This document shows positions 34,154 through 40,219 of a DNA stretch of 64,000 nt, in pieces. This stretch comes from Sphingobacterium sp. xlx-96 (GTDB lineage Bacteria > Bacteroidota > Bacteroidia > Sphingobacteriales > Sphingobacteriaceae): positions 248,001 to 312,000 of the forward strand of contig NZ_WFKM01000002.1 of assembly GCF_011007365.1 (NCBI RefSeq), written 5' to 3'. Position numbers and translations under genes: made by a program. Each line of letters opens with the position of its first letter. Position 1 is the stretch's first letter. The notes beneath the pieces were generated by a model. It was not told the origin of the DNA. It searched no databases and worked only from the letters and a program-made list of their open reading frames with translations.

Positions 34154-35461
34154 TTATTTCCTGTTCAATAGATAGTCTTTAAATTTCTCAAAATCTATAG
34201 AAGCGGCGGTAGCTACCTTAGGCTTATTAGACAGATCAGAAGCTCCTTGTGGTAGCTTTACCTTTGCAAATATCGCTGTATCGATTGCTTCCGGAAATTT
34301 ACAGGGATGTGCCGTGGACAAAAACACAGAACCATACTCCCCAGGACAATCTTTACGATAGGCTTGAGCGGCTAAGTAACCTATTGCAGTGTGCGGACAT
34401 GCCACATAGCTATATTTCTCAAAAAGCTCATTCATAGCCACTTTTATTTCCTCATCTGTATATGCATACGAAGAGATAACATTGCGCAAACCCTCCAAAT
34501 CTCCATGAAATAAATCTTTAATACGAACCCAATTACTTGGATCCCCTACATCCATCGCATTAGCCAATGTTTGAATAGACGGTTTAGGTTCGTAAGATCC
34601 TGACTTTAGAAAACGTGGCACTGTATCATTCACATTTGTACCGGCCACGAAATGTTTCACTGGTAGTCCCATTTTATAAGCCAATAGACCAGCTCCAATA
34701 TTGCCAAAGTTACCACTAGGAATAGTAAACACCACTTCATGAACCCCCTGTACCTTCAATTGTGCATAAGCCCAAAAGTAATAAAAGGTCTGTGGAATTA
34801 GACGGGCAATATTGATAGAATTTGCGGAAGTGAGACGCAGTGCTGTGTTAAGCTCAGGATCACTAAAAGCTCGCTTTACCAAAGCCTGACAATCGTCGAA
34901 CGTACCATCCACCTCTACTGCCCGGATATTTTGCCCATTCGTTGTCAATTGCTCTTCCTGTACTTTAGAAACTTTTCCTTTAGGGTATAGAATGGTAACT
35001 CGCGTTCCTTCGACGCCAAGAAATCCCAACGCAACAGCGCCGCCAGTATCTCCCGATGTTGCAACAAGCACATCTAATAATCGATCTCCATTTTTAGAGA
35101 AATACCCCATCACCCGACTCATAAAACGCGCCCCAAAATCTTTAAACGCATATGAGGGACCATGAAAAAGTTCAAAAACAGCAGTTTGGGCATCCAAAAA
35201 TTTAACAGGTGCATCAAAATTAATTGCATCTGCTATTATGGCTTTTAAATCTTCTTTCGGAATGTCATTTCCAATTATTGCATTTGCTACAGTAAAAGCG
35301 ATCTCCTGCAGAGAATACTGCTGGAGATTCCGGATAAACAAAGCATCCAATTGAGGTATAACCTCAGGCATATACAAGCCTCTATCCTGTGGCAAAGAGT
35401 TGAATACGGCTTCTTGGAAAGAAACACGCAGATTCTTATTATTCGTACTATAAAATTTCAT
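34154..35461 (-). CDS. thrC: Threonine synthase
   Basis: A 435-residue PLP enzyme. The N-terminal MKFYSTNNKNLRVSFQEAVFNSLPQ is typical of the shorter bacterial class, the PLP lysine is in HGPSYAFKDFGARF, and the phosphate loop is in SGNFGNIGAGLLAYKMG. It converts O-phosphohomoserine to threonine, the last step of the operon's pathway. It follows thrB by 44 bases. Confidence 0.96.
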   Translation of the reverse strand: MKFYSTNNKNLRVSFQEAVFNSLPQDRGLYMPEVIPQLDALFIRNLQQYSLQEIAFTVANAIIGNDIPKEDLKAIIADAINFDAPVKFLDAQTAVFELFHGPSYAFKDFGARFMSRVMGYFSKNGDRLLDVLVATSGDTGGAVALGFLGVEGTRVTILYPKGKVSKVQEEQLTTNGQNIRAVEVDGTFDDCQALVKRAFSDPELNTALRLTSANSINIARLIPQTFYYFWAYAQLKVQGVHEVVFTIPSGNFGNIGAGLLAYKMGLPVKHFVAGTNVNDTVPRFLKSGSYEPKPSIQTLANAMDVGDPSNWVRIKDLFHGDLEGLRNVISSYAYTDEEIKVAMNELFEKYSYVACPHTAIGYLAAQAYRKDCPGEYGSVFLSTAHPCKFPEAIDTAIFAKVKLPQGASDLSNKPKVATAASIDFEKFKDYLLNRK

Positions 35462-35505: not shown

Positions 35506-36489
35506 TTAAAACTCCAGCACCCTAGGGCCTACTACATTAATAGCAGATACATATTGATAACTATCGATTTCTCTAGTGGACAAATGGCTTTTAATTTTAT
35601 CGACAATAAGCTGAGCCATAGCTTCTCCTCGAGACACGGCGACAACAGAAGGACCTGAACCCGATATCCCGAAACTTAATGCACCATTTTCTAAGGCTAT
35701 TCGCTTCATTTCATAGAATTCAGGAATTAAAATAGCACGAGTTGGCTCGATCAACACGTCTTGCATACTTCTTCCTATCAGACTATAGTCATTCTGAAAA
35801 AGTCCGGCCACCAATCCTGCAATATTCCCCCATTGCACCACCGCATCCTTTAAAAGCACCTTATCCTTGATCAGCTTTCTAGCATCACGGGTCGGAACAT
35901 CAACCTGTGGAAACACAATGCCGACAAACAATTCTTCCGGAACTGGAAGTTTAATAACATCCAGCTCGACTTGACCTCGAATTAACGTCACACCTCCCAT
36001 AAGAGCTGGTGCGACATTATCAGCATGACCATATCCACATGCCAAGCGCTCCCCTTCCACACAATAGGGCATAAGCTCTGTTTTAGAAAGTGGGCTTCCC
36101 AATAAGACATTTATCGCAAAAAGCCCCGCTACCGTACTGGCAGAACTTGATCCCAATCCTGAACCAATCGGCATATGTTTATTCAATTCAATCTCTACTC
36201 CGATATCATTTAAGAGCCCCAAATCAGACAATAACATCTTGACACAGGCGCTTACTGTATTTCTATCAGGATCCAGAGGTAGTCGACCATCATCTCCTGT
36301 TATAGAGCGAATTCGTACACCGGGTTCTGCCACTCGATACATCTTGACTTCATCACCAGGCTTATCTACCGCAAATCCCAAAATATCAAATCCGCAAATC
36401 ATATTTGCCACAGTAGCAGGAGCAAAAACGCGCACTTTATCCAAGATCTTATCGAAACTTATCTTCTTATCTAACTTATTCTGATTCAT
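35506..36489 (-). CDS. thrB: Homoserine kinase
   Basis: A 327-residue GHMP kinase. The ATP-binding loop is PIGSGLGSSSASTVAG, preceded by VFAPATVANMICGFDILGFAV and followed by the C-terminal GISGSGPSVVAVS. It phosphorylates homoserine with ATP. It lies between thrA and thrC. The 123-base gap to thrA contains a short palindromic repeat but no terminator. Confidence 0.96.
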   Translation of the reverse strand: MNQNKLDKKISFDKILDKVRVFAPATVANMICGFDILGFAVDKPGDEVKMYRVAEPGVRIRSITGDDGRLPLDPDRNTVSACVKMLLSDLGLLNDIGVEIELNKHMPIGSGLGSSSASTVAGLFAINVLLGSPLSKTELMPYCVEGERLACGYGHADNVAPALMGGVTLIRGQVELDVIKLPVPEELFVGIVFPQVDVPTRDARKLIKDKVLLKDAVVQWGNIAGLVAGLFQNDYSLIGRSMQDVLIEPTRAILIPEFYEMKRIALENGALSFGISGSGPSVVAVSRGEAMAQLIVDKIKSHLSTREIDSYQYVSAINVVGPRVLEF

Positions 36490-36612: not shown

Positions 36613-39060
36613 TTATGCTCCGACATTTACCAAGTCTGCAAAAACTCCTCCTGCAGTTACTTCAGCACCCGCACCAGGTCCCTTAACCACAAGAGGTCTT
36701 TCTTTATACCGCTCGGTAGTAAAAGATATGATATTATCACTTCCCGAAAGTGCATAAAATGGATGCGTACTGTCCACCATTTGTAAAGAAATACAAACTT
36801 TTCCCTCTTCCAATTTGCCAATATATCGGATTACTTGACCGGCTGCAGCGGCTTGATCCTTTAACAAATTAAAATATTGTTCAGCCTTCAACAATTCTGC
36901 ATAAAACTCATCTACAGATGATGCTGCCAAACAAGCCTCTGGAAGTATCGCTCCTAAATCTACGTCTGAAGATTCAATCGGATATCCAGCATCACGAGCC
37001 AAAATCAGCATTTTTCGCATAAAATCAACGCCTCCTAAATCATCTCGGGGATCCGGTTCTGTATACCCCAACTCTTGTGCCTTCTTCACGACCTCATAAA
37101 ATGAAGCATCTCCCACAAAATTATTAAAGATGTAAGATATCGTTCCGGATAAAATTGCTTCTATTTTTAAAATACGATCGCCACTCATCATTAGGTCCTT
37201 TAACACGCGGACAATAGGCAACCCTGCACCAACATTAGTCTCATAAAAAAAGTCTACACCATGTTTGCGTGCCGCTTCATGCAGCGATTGATATTGTGCA
37301 TAATCTCCCGAATTCGCTATTTTATTACAAGTCACAATAGAGATATTGGATCTAAAAATATCCTCATAATATATTGCGGGCAACTTGCTAGCTGTGTTAT
37401 CAATAAACACACAATTGGGTAGATTGAGTGCTTTCATCTGTTCTATAAAGCTAGTCAAGTCTGCAATATCCCCCTTAGCTCCCAACGCTTCTTCCCATGC
37501 ACCCAAATCAATTCCGGATACATCAAATAACATTTTTCTTGAATTAGAGATGCCCACAACCTTAATTTCGATATCATTGCTTTCTAATAAGAAATCATGC
37601 TGCATAAATAGCTGTTTAAACAGTGTTGCACCTATATTACCAGTACCAAGGTTAAACACATGTAGTGTCTTCTTTAGTTCTGCAAAAAAGGCATCATGTA
37701 CCGCATTCAACGCTTTTGCAAGATCCTCTTTGGAAATAATAACGGAAATATTAAACTCAGAAGACCCTTGAGCGATGGCACGAACATTTATACCATTCCT
37801 TCCTAACGCATGGAACAATTTTCCCGACATACCTGGTGTTCGCTTCATATTTTCACCAACAATGGCCAATACAGAGAGGTTTTCTTCCACCTCTGGCATC
37901 ACCAGCTTACTTGCAGCCAACTCCAGCTCAAACTCTGAAGCGATCAAAACCAACGCCTTAGTCGCATCAGATGGATTGACCGCAAACGTTATACTGTGCT
38001 CCGAAGAAGATTGTGTGATTAACACAACATTAATCTGTTCGCGAGCCAATAAAGTAAACAAACGTCCTGAAAACCCAGATTTACCAATCATTCCGCTTCC
38101 CGTAAGATTGATGATCGATATATCTGAAATAGATGAAATACCTTTAATAGGATATTTCGACTTATCCGATTCGAACTGGATACGGGTTCCAGACAAATGA
38201 GGTTCGAAGGTATTTCTAATCGCAATCGGAATTTTTTTCATAAATGCAGGAATCATAGTTGGTGGATAAATGACTTTAGCACCGAAATAAGACAATTCCA
38301 TTGCCTCTGTATACGATAAGATAGGGAGCGAAAAAGCCTTTTTTACGATTCTAGGATCCGCAGTCAGCATACCATTCACGTCTGTCCAGATCTCAATAAC
38401 GGAAGCTCCTAATACAGCACCGAATATCGCTGCAGTATAGTCTGAACCGCCACGTCCTAATGTTGTAACCCTTCCTTTATCATTAGATCCGATAAATCCA
38501 GTAACAAATAATAACTTATTTGTGTGAGTGTACGATAGCGCCTGAATCAATTGAGTAGTCAAATCTTCATTTATATGTGCATTTCCAAAATTAGAGTCAG
38601 TTTTGATATAATGGGCCGCATTAATGTACTCCGAATCAGAAACATACTGTTCCATGATTTTGGAAACCATGTAATTGGAAAAGCGTTCTCCGAAAGACAG
38701 TACCAAATCTCTACTTTGATCACTCAACTCTCTCAAGGCAGTTATACCTTGCAATATATCATCGAGATCATTGACCATTAGTTTTAGTTTTGTAAATACC
38801 GGATTTTGAAATTTGACGGCTATCAGTTTTCGGACAACATCAAAATGTTTCTCTTCGATTACCTCCAGATTTGCACTAAACCCCTTCCCCTCAGCGGCAT
38901 CCTCAGCCATCTGTGTCAATAAATTGGTTACTCCAGACATCGCTGACAACACCACAAGCGGCTTTTCATTTTTCTCAAAAGAGTCCCTAACAATTGACAG
39001 TACCTTTTCTATACTCGACGCGGTACCTACGGATGTACCTCCAAATTTTAATACCTTCAT
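36613..39060 (-). CDS. thrA: Bifunctional aspartate kinase / homoserine dehydrogenase I
   Basis: An 815-residue fusion. The kinase domain (1-290) starts with MKVLKFGGTSVG and has TTLGRGGSDYTAAIFGA. Two ACT domains (about 310-455) include INVVLITQSSSEHSITFAV and INVRAIAQGSSEFNISVII, the sites for threonine feedback in this family. The dehydrogenase domain (465-815) has FNLGTGNIGATLFKQL, TCNKIANSGDYAQY, TNVGAGLPIVRVL and LGYTEPDPRDDLGGVDFMRKMLIL. It opens the threonine operon and is preceded by a leader peptide and terminator at 39094-39227, so transcription is probably attenuated by Thr/Ile supply. Confidence 0.96.
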   Translation of the reverse strand: MKVLKFGGTSVGTASSIEKVLSIVRDSFEKNEKPLVVLSAMSGVTNLLTQMAEDAAEGKGFSANLEVIEEKHFDVVRKLIAVKFQNPVFTKLKLMVNDLDDILQGITALRELSDQSRDLVLSFGERFSNYMVSKIMEQYVSDSEYINAAHYIKTDSNFGNAHINEDLTTQLIQALSYTHTNKLLFVTGFIGSNDKGRVTTLGRGGSDYTAAIFGAVLGASVIEIWTDVNGMLTADPRIVKKAFSLPILSYTEAMELSYFGAKVIYPPTMIPAFMKKIPIAIRNTFEPHLSGTRIQFESDKSKYPIKGISSISDISIINLTGSGMIGKSGFSGRLFTLLAREQINVVLITQSSSEHSITFAVNPSDATKALVLIASEFELELAASKLVMPEVEENLSVLAIVGENMKRTPGMSGKLFHALGRNGINVRAIAQGSSEFNISVIISKEDLAKALNAVHDAFFAELKKTLHVFNLGTGNIGATLFKQLFMQHDFLLESNDIEIKVVGISNSRKMLFDVSGIDLGAWEEALGAKGDIADLTSFIEQMKALNLPNCVFIDNTASKLPAIYYEDIFRSNISIVTCNKIANSGDYAQYQSLHEAARKHGVDFFYETNVGAGLPIVRVLKDLMMSGDRILKIEAILSGTISYIFNNFVGDASFYEVVKKAQELGYTEPDPRDDLGGVDFMRKMLILARDAGYPIESSDVDLGAILPEACLAASSVDEFYAELLKAEQYFNLLKDQAAAAGQVIRYIGKLEEGKVCISLQMVDSTHPFYALSGSDNIISFTTERYKERPLVVKGPGAGAEVTAGGVFADLVNVGA

Positions 39061-39093: not shown

Positions 39094-39129
39094 CACAAAA
39101 AAAGCCTTCCTCATTTCGAGGAAGGCTTT
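39094..39129 (-). terminator. Attenuator terminator upstream of thrA
   Basis: On the minus strand AAAGCCTTCCTC pairs perfectly with GAGGAAGGCTTT (12 base pairs, loop GAAAT), followed by seven T with the last stem pairs. It lies 34 bases before the thrA ATG and 24 bases after the leader peptide stop, so it would block thrA unless prevented from forming. The 5' arm piece CCTTCCTC can instead pair with GAGGGAGG at 39167-39174 in the leader (one G.U), a ready antiterminator. Confidence 0.85.
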
Positions 39130-39152
39130 CTATATTTATGACACGTATTATT

Positions 39153-39227
39153 TCAACATAGAACTACCTCCCTCTGAGTTATCCCAGTGGTAATAATAGT
39201 TGTTGAAATAATAACGCTTAAAATCAT
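39153..39227 (-). CDS. thrL: Threonine operon leader peptide
   Basis: A 24-codon reading frame, too short for routine gene calling. Residues 6-17 read IISTTIITTGIT; in all, five threonine and six isoleucine codons make up 11 of 24. This resembles the logic of the enteric thr leader. It ends with TGA 24 bases before a perfect intrinsic terminator. Codons 18-21 contain the antiterminator strand GAGGGAGG. When Thr or Ile is scarce, a ribosome stalled at codons 9-17 would leave this strand free to pair with the terminator arm; a ribosome reaching the stop would cover it. A TAAATTTG promoter element lies at 39277-39284, about 50 bases upstream. Confidence 0.8.
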   Translation of the reverse strand: MILSVIISTTIITTGITQREVVLC

Positions 39228-39276
39228 GTCTTTTCGCAAATTTTAGATAAAGATAATACAATATTTTTATTAAATG

Positions 39277-39284
39277 CAAATTTA
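39277..39284 (-). promoter_or_regulatory. -7 promoter element of the thr operon
   Basis: On the minus strand TAAATTTG fits TAnnTTTG. It would start transcription about 43 bases before the leader peptide ATG. No TTTG is seen at the -33 position, which is AT-rich. Confidence 0.4.
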
Positions 39285-39584: not shown

Positions 39585-40160
39585 ATGAAAACAAAAAAAC
39601 TAATAGCAGGTTTGCTATTGACAGGCTTTTGTCTAGTGTCGCACGCACAAACAACAAACAAAAGTAAAACTGGAGATCAGGATAATCTTGCAAAAGAGTA
39701 CTTTTCTCAAATCATGGGTGTAGCCGTTAATGCTACAACAAGCACTAAACTTTATCAGTTCGTTTATGATTGGTTAGGAACACCTTATCGTTTAGGTGGA
39801 GATTCTAAAAAAGGAATCGATTGTTCCAAATTTTCATTAGCAGTATATGAAAATGTCTTCAACACCACAATTGGATATAACAGCAGAAATCAATATGATA
39901 ATGTCACCCCGATAGGAAAAGGTGAGCTTCAAGCAGGAGATTTGGTCTTTTTTAAAATCCGCAGTAAGAGCATTACACATGTGGGGGTTTATTTAGGAGA
40001 TGACAAATTTGCTCATGCTTCATCTAGCAAAGGAGTAATGGTTAGCAGCCTTAATGAAGCGTATTGGAAACGTTATTATTATAATGGAGGAAGACCTAAA
40101 AAAGATGAAGACAGAATCATGACTGCAGACGCAACGAACTACAAAGAAGACGGTAAATAA
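39585..40160 (+). CDS. Secreted NlpC/P60 family peptidoglycan hydrolase
   Basis: A 191-residue protein with a signal peptide ending in VSHAQTT. The C40 peptidase domain has YDWLGTPYRLGGDSKKGIDCSKF with nucleophile C80, H132 in ITHVGVYLGDD and H144 in KFAHASSSKGV. Such enzymes cut D-Glu-diaminopimelate bonds of peptidoglycan stem peptides in the periplasm. It is a single gene closed by a strong terminator. The about 40 residues before the domain are polar and unassigned. Confidence 0.93.
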   Translation: MKTKKLIAGLLLTGFCLVSHAQTTNKSKTGDQDNLAKEYFSQIMGVAVNATTSTKLYQFVYDWLGTPYRLGGDSKKGIDCSKFSLAVYENVFNTTIGYNSRNQYDNVTPIGKGELQAGDLVFFKIRSKSITHVGVYLGDDKFAHASSSKGVMVSSLNEAYWKRYYYNGGRPKKDEDRIMTADATNYKEDGK

Positions 40161-40184: not shown

Positions 40185-40219
40185 AAAGTCCGAATGAGTG
40201 TATCATTCGGACTTTTTTT
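40185..40219 (+). terminator. Intrinsic terminator after the NlpC/P60 gene
   Basis: AAAGTCCGAATGA pairs perfectly with TCATTCGGACTTT around GTGTA, followed by a T-run. Confidence 0.9.

Follow-up and report, generated by a model that had tools for sequence, protein, structure and literature searches.

The threonine operon of enteric bacteria is controlled by ribosome-mediated attenuation. In Escherichia coli, thrL encodes a Thr/Ile-rich leader peptide of 21 codons (ending TTGNGAG*) ahead of thrABC and is followed by a terminator with a U-tract, and the antiterminator strand (GGTGCGGGCT, overlapping the stop codon) lies in the last leader codons. A survey from 2013 suggested that amino-acid attenuator motifs arose in the gamma-proteobacteria (PMC3766115). 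Among the Bacteroidota, a distant phylum for which such switches have seldom been described, the transcriptome of B. thetaiotaomicron holds short ORFs reminiscent of attenuation leader peptides, with no threonine case in the main text (PMC7366714), and the Rfam family RF01692 (Bacteroid-trp) is a candidate cis-regulatory RNA that, by its name, belongs to the trp operon (PMC2864571). In the part of the open literature covered here, we found no description of a thr attenuator in Bacteroidota. Vitreschak et al. are said to have mentioned, in an abstract of 2004, a few predicted attenuators in Bacteroidetes/Chlorobi, and we therefore claim no priority. The mechanism is classical, and the new part is the host group.

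Here we analyze the region upstream of thrA in a 64,000-nt stretch of DNA from Sphingobacterium sp. xlx-96 (the window). It shares with thrL the Thr/Ile-rich leader, the thrABC target, the U-tract terminator and the placement of the antiterminator in the last leader codons, and differs in leader sequence, in its AT-rich Ile/Thr codons, in an additional stem (P1) and in the bacterial group that carries it. As judged from comparative sequence analysis and folding, the region is very probably a ribosome-mediated transcription attenuator of thrABC, predicted to sense charged tRNA-Thr and tRNA-Ile.

Architecture of the thr leader region

The region is encoded on the minus strand and is flanked by thrA on one side and, on the other, by a divergent NlpC/P60-type gene that starts at 39585 on the plus strand. 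The target operon has the gene order thrA, thrB, thrC, each with a profile match above cut-off. The parts are as follows.

36613..39060, minus: thrA, bifunctional aspartate kinase/homoserine dehydrogenase I (NF006959, 1008 bits, cut-off 726)
35506..36489, minus: thrB, homoserine kinase (NF002288, 361 bits, cut-off 194)
34154..35461, minus: thrC, threonine synthase (TIGR00260, 271 bits, cut-off 167)
39153..39227, minus: thr leader peptide CDS (thrL-like), MILSVIISTTIITTGITQREVVLC*, frame kept in 80/80 evaluable loci
39166..39174, minus: antiterminator strand GAGGGAGGT, within the final codons of the leader, forming 9 bp with the terminator 5' arm
39118..39129, minus: terminator 5' arm AAAGCCTTCCTC, able to pair with either the antiterminator or the 3' arm
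39101..39112, minus: terminator 3' arm GAGGAAGGCTTT
39097..39103, minus: U-tract of the intrinsic terminator, 7 T, of which the first three belong to the stem
39201..39213, minus: P1 protector stem, 5' strand TATTATTTCAACA, in the leader, ahead of the Thr/Ile run and reaching into it
39146..39158, minus: P1 protector stem, 3' strand TGTTGAAATAATA, overlapping the leader stop codon
39277..39280, minus: possible -33 element TTTG of a Bacteroidota-type promoter (sequence reading)
39248..39255, minus: possible -7 element TATCTTTA, with a 21-nt spacer to the -33 element (sequence reading)

The leader has 24 codons, from an ATG at 39227 to a TGA ending at 39153, of which 11 specify Thr (5) or Ile (6). 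Its stop codon is followed after 23 nt by a hairpin of 12 perfect pairs with a 5-nt loop (39101-39129) and then the U-tract, and GAGGGAGGT forms 9 bp, counting G-U pairs, with GCCTTCCTC in the 5' arm of the terminator. The leader, the perfect 12-bp terminator and the pairing between them had been proposed in a first-pass annotation of this DNA, and all three stand; it gave no strand, and every part of the attenuator is on the minus strand. The leader ends 92 nt before thrA, which starts at 39060, and the hairpin lies 40 nt from it. Since the hairpin sits inside the thrA 5' region, between divergently oriented genes, it is not the terminator of another gene. When the intergenic stretch was shuffled with dinucleotide composition preserved (n=3000), an ATG frame of 18-30 codons with at least 11 Thr/Ile codons arose in 2 shuffles, a 12-bp perfect hairpin in 1 and both together in none; the combination of leader and hairpin is not a chance event.

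The Bacteroidota promoter consensus is TTTG / TANNTTTG. Statistical support for the possible -33 element across relatives was weak. An automatic promoter scan returned TATCTTTA as the best match in one relative (L006), 19 nt from the start codon, and ranked another site first in the window itself. A second strong terminator-like hairpin of the window (40185-40215, plus strand; 13 bp and a U-tract) follows directly after the NlpC/P60-type gene (39585-40160).

Conservation of the leader among Sphingobacteriaceae

Species genomes were scanned and yielded 80 thrA loci; those that are named belong to Sphingobacterium, Parapedobacter, Pedobacter, Mucilaginibacter and Albibacterium. One locus (L056), whose upstream region is ended by a contig edge, was left out, and the other 79 together with the window made 80 evaluable regions. 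Conservation in relatives had been named in the first-pass annotation as a check, and it was found throughout: a Thr/Ile leader with a terminator is present in 80/80 regions (typical leaders being MNTNTIITTIIITTGIKLRRK, MTINNTIITTIITTGIKLGGR and MNFNTSIITTIIITTGINQRG), and the terminator with its 12-bp stem and U-tract is retained in nearly all relatives. The stop codon lies 0-2 nt past the antiterminator in most species, and 10-16 nt past it in the clade of the window and a few others.

In 58 non-redundant sequences, the nine codons ahead of the Gly/Asp codon specify Thr or Ile in 95% of cases, and the two residues swap for one another. Position 1 of these codons is A in 95% and position 2 is C or T in 99.6%, with position 3 free. 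This pattern is what selection on Thr/Ile codons, rather than on the RNA sequence, would leave.

The pairing of the antiterminator with the terminator 5' arm was scored in the same family set. The family mean was 20.1. Shuffled strands gave 11.7 +/- 0.3 and synonymous recodings that keep the amino acids 12.1 +/- 0.44; taken individually, 22 of the 58 species do not pass the recoding test. The helix is short (4-6 bp) in L057 and a few others. It is CGGGGC/GTCCCG in Pedobacter, TCGGGAAGGT/GCCTTCCCGA in S. hungaricum and GGAGGAAG/CTTCCTCC in most other species; Pedobacter strands pair worse with the partners of the others, and the reverse holds as well. The helix has been rebuilt with new sequence on both strands in Pedobacter and S. 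hungaricum, which is the covariation that the earlier annotation had proposed looking for. A MAFFT alignment, in which antiterminator and P1 change register between clades, was excluded from pair counting.

Predicted switch point

The transcript was folded up to the terminator loop with the ribosome-covered stretch hidden, the footprint being assumed to reach 12 nt past the first base of the A-site codon. With the A site on the core Thr/Ile codons, the predicted antiterminator probability is 0.92-0.95; it is 0.89 on the Gly codon, 0.49 one codon further on, 0.08 after two codons and 0 at the stop. By this folding prediction, the position of the stalled ribosome decides which of the alternative structures forms. 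As the probability drops there, the switch border is placed at the end of the Thr/Ile run, at the last Thr codon. The profile of E. coli thrL is closely similar (1.0, then 0.7, 0.3 and 0 at the last Thr, Gly and Asn codons), with the switch likewise predicted at the last Thr codons, and in every respect examined the model has the window attenuator working like the enteric one. The two leaders also share a TTG followed by Gly/Arg codons. Convergence may account for this, since a G-rich antiterminator lying a few codons past the last Thr must encode such residues. The first-pass annotation had described a two-state form, with the antiterminator strand inside the leader; such a form is not unusual, E. 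coli thrL having the same placement.

A proposed protector stem of variable occurrence

A perfect 13-bp inverted repeat (39201-39213 / 39146-39158; P about 3e-4), absent from the earlier annotation, encloses the antiterminator strand. The minimum-energy fold of the leader (-51.5 kcal/mol, z = -7.5) contains both P1 and the terminator. In the window transcript ending before the terminator 3' arm and free of ribosomes, P1 is predicted to prevent the antiterminator from forming (probability 0.00). Tested as clade sets of our own grouping, P1 pairs better than dinucleotide shuffles in the window clade, Parapedobacter, Pedobacter, a S. siyangense-like clade, a S. composti-like clade and Mucilaginibacter, with a different sequence in each of the six; the S. 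wenxiniae-like clade and the set of other species showed no such excess. Across species, the mean antiterminator probability without a ribosome is 0.64. Because P1 is lineage-variable, being absent or no better than chance in some clades, the predicted default of an untranslated leader differs between species. The description of the switch as two-state, with no separate segment, therefore holds for the core found throughout the family and not for the window genome, where the 13-bp P1 adds a protector state.

Relation to known RNA families

At gathering level, Rfam models matched nothing at the thr leader, the only hit in the whole window being a tRNA elsewhere. At a relaxed level, the best family was RF00506 (Thr_leader), with 37.9 bits against a gathering cut-off of 55, which is no significant match; unrelated terminators of the same genome score 35-37 and up to 37.4 bits. 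The score is not specific, the assignment was rejected, and the comparison with the enteric leader is one of architecture alone. Many matches of 30-55 bits to RF00506 across Bacteroidota genomes resemble ordinary strong terminators. The only match over the cut-off in the phylum sample (L148) was set aside as an ordinary long terminator, not thr-leader-like. The RF01692 covariance model had no match anywhere in the genome of the window; Bacteroid-trp, also of the Bacteroidota, concerns a different operon from the thr leader.

Other amino-acid leaders in the family and phylum

A wider survey of the phylum and the family took in 60 more regions upstream of thrA. Other Sphingobacteriaceae genera (L134-L142, L146) carry the same type of thr leader as the window. 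A different type occurs in several other Bacteroidia families and in one Sphingobacteriaceae genus (L133). In this second type, the Thr/Ile codons run directly into a hairpin that straddles the stop codon (ACAACCCCTTAGGGG), and neither a U-tract nor an intrinsic terminator was found. Leaders at L092, L096, L097, L099-L102, L105, L113, L116 and L133 end in TTP* or similar and have a conserved CATATC/CATATAATCC stretch. In three loci of family f8 (L103, L106 and L090), the stop-straddling hairpin becomes ACGGGGTGACCCGT after the Thr codons, the pairing being kept with a different sequence. A pattern search for the second type gave at most one copy per genome, and 4 of the 9 matches were at thrA.

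The genome of the window has further leaders. Upstream of hisG (L163; C1, minus strand) lies a His-rich leader, MITSLSHHIHMHHRQFGDM, and such leaders precede hisG in 24/24 Sphingobacteriaceae genomes examined (L163, L166-L188). A hairpin covers their last codons (CATCGCC..GGCGATATGTAAT), a conserved element, TATGTTTCTACGTGAA, follows downstream, and a U-tract terminator is mostly lacking; the three hisG loci that were scanned against Rfam matched no family. The U-tract-less thr and his leaders resemble the thr leader of the window in being short, rich in codons for the pathway product and placed upstream of thrA or hisG, but their hairpin straddles or adjoins the leader stop, unlike the separate terminator of the window. 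Upstream of trpE (L164; C15, minus strand), a Trp leader (MMTQSTYQFWWWPGANSVGRHLYWFSE, with WWW) contains the antiterminator CGTCGGG and is followed by a terminator (GCCCGACG/CGTCGGGC) and a U-tract, an architecture as in the thr leader. Inspection of the ilvE-ilvD operon of the same genome revealed no obvious leader.

Discussion

The locus combines the elements that define attenuators of this class: a leader ORF of end-product codons, an intrinsic terminator, and a covarying antiterminator that excludes it. From these elements, their conservation, the thrABC targets and the predicted switch point, we infer that the leader is translated, that ribosomes stall on it in coupling with RNA polymerase, and that termination follows or fails accordingly in the cell. 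In the proposed model, a ribosome would trail the polymerase as the leader is transcribed. If Thr or Ile were short, it would stall in the STTIITTG run, leaving the downstream GAGGGAGGT free to capture the terminator 5' arm while the 3' arm is still untranscribed, and the polymerase would continue into thrA. With both Thr and Ile plentiful, the ribosome would pass the run and cover GAGGGAGGT, and the terminator would form. Were the leader of the window genome left untranslated, P1 would hold the antiterminator in its loop, making termination the default.

That the parts are an ordinary terminator or spacer stem next to a Thr/Ile frame arisen as a low-complexity accident of AT-rich DNA is hardly credible. 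It is true that the intergenic region is AT-rich and that these genomes have many strong U-tract hairpins, but the frame, its Thr/Ile identity and the placement of its stop codon are kept at all 80 loci, none of the 3000 shuffles held both elements, and, the flanking genes being divergent, no gene lies upstream on the minus strand for the hairpin to terminate. The same cis elements could instead serve translational or Rho-based control, or act mainly on RNA stability, with the hairpin an inefficient terminator. Speaking for such control, the thr leaders seen elsewhere in the Bacteroidota, like the his leader of the window genome, lack a U-tract and must act otherwise; against it, 12 perfect pairs with a U-tract are retained in nearly all relatives, and the antiterminator has its partner in the terminator arm, not in the thrA start region, so that we regard it as very unlikely.

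Two further questions concern how the transcription attenuator of thrABC would be set. A leader answering mainly to Thr alone, rather than to Thr and Ile, seems improbable: at the switch border, the final two codons of the core are Thr in 57/58 and 58/58 sequences, and some Mucilaginibacter leaders are nearly all Thr (MITIITSTTTTTTG), but 235 of the 522 core codons are Ile, which in most species is the prevailing residue at positions -3 to -5 and -8 to -9. P1 might also be a chance repeat without a role, leaving a pure two-state switch that reads through by default when the leader is untranslated. Its failure to exceed chance in several clades and the antiterminator predicted for the untranslated leader of most species give this reading some weight; we nevertheless consider it doubtful, in view of the 13 perfect pairs of the window stem, which abolish the predicted antiterminator when no ribosome is present, and of the six clade sets that exceed shuffles, each with a stem of its own sequence.

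With leader peptides for thr, trp and his in one genome, we tentatively suggest, as one possibility, that the Bacteroidota possess a broad set of leader-peptide attenuators, either evolved independently or shared since ancient times, that would require close ribosome-polymerase coupling; within this set, the thr switch of the Sphingobacteriaceae may add a lineage-variable protector stem and stand beside a second, terminator-less type. The family-wide conservation of the thr attenuator and the trp and his leaders beside it argue that current RNA-family models miss part of the range of leader-peptide control, and the thr attenuator would offer a simple test of the coupling between ribosome and RNA polymerase in Bacteroidota.
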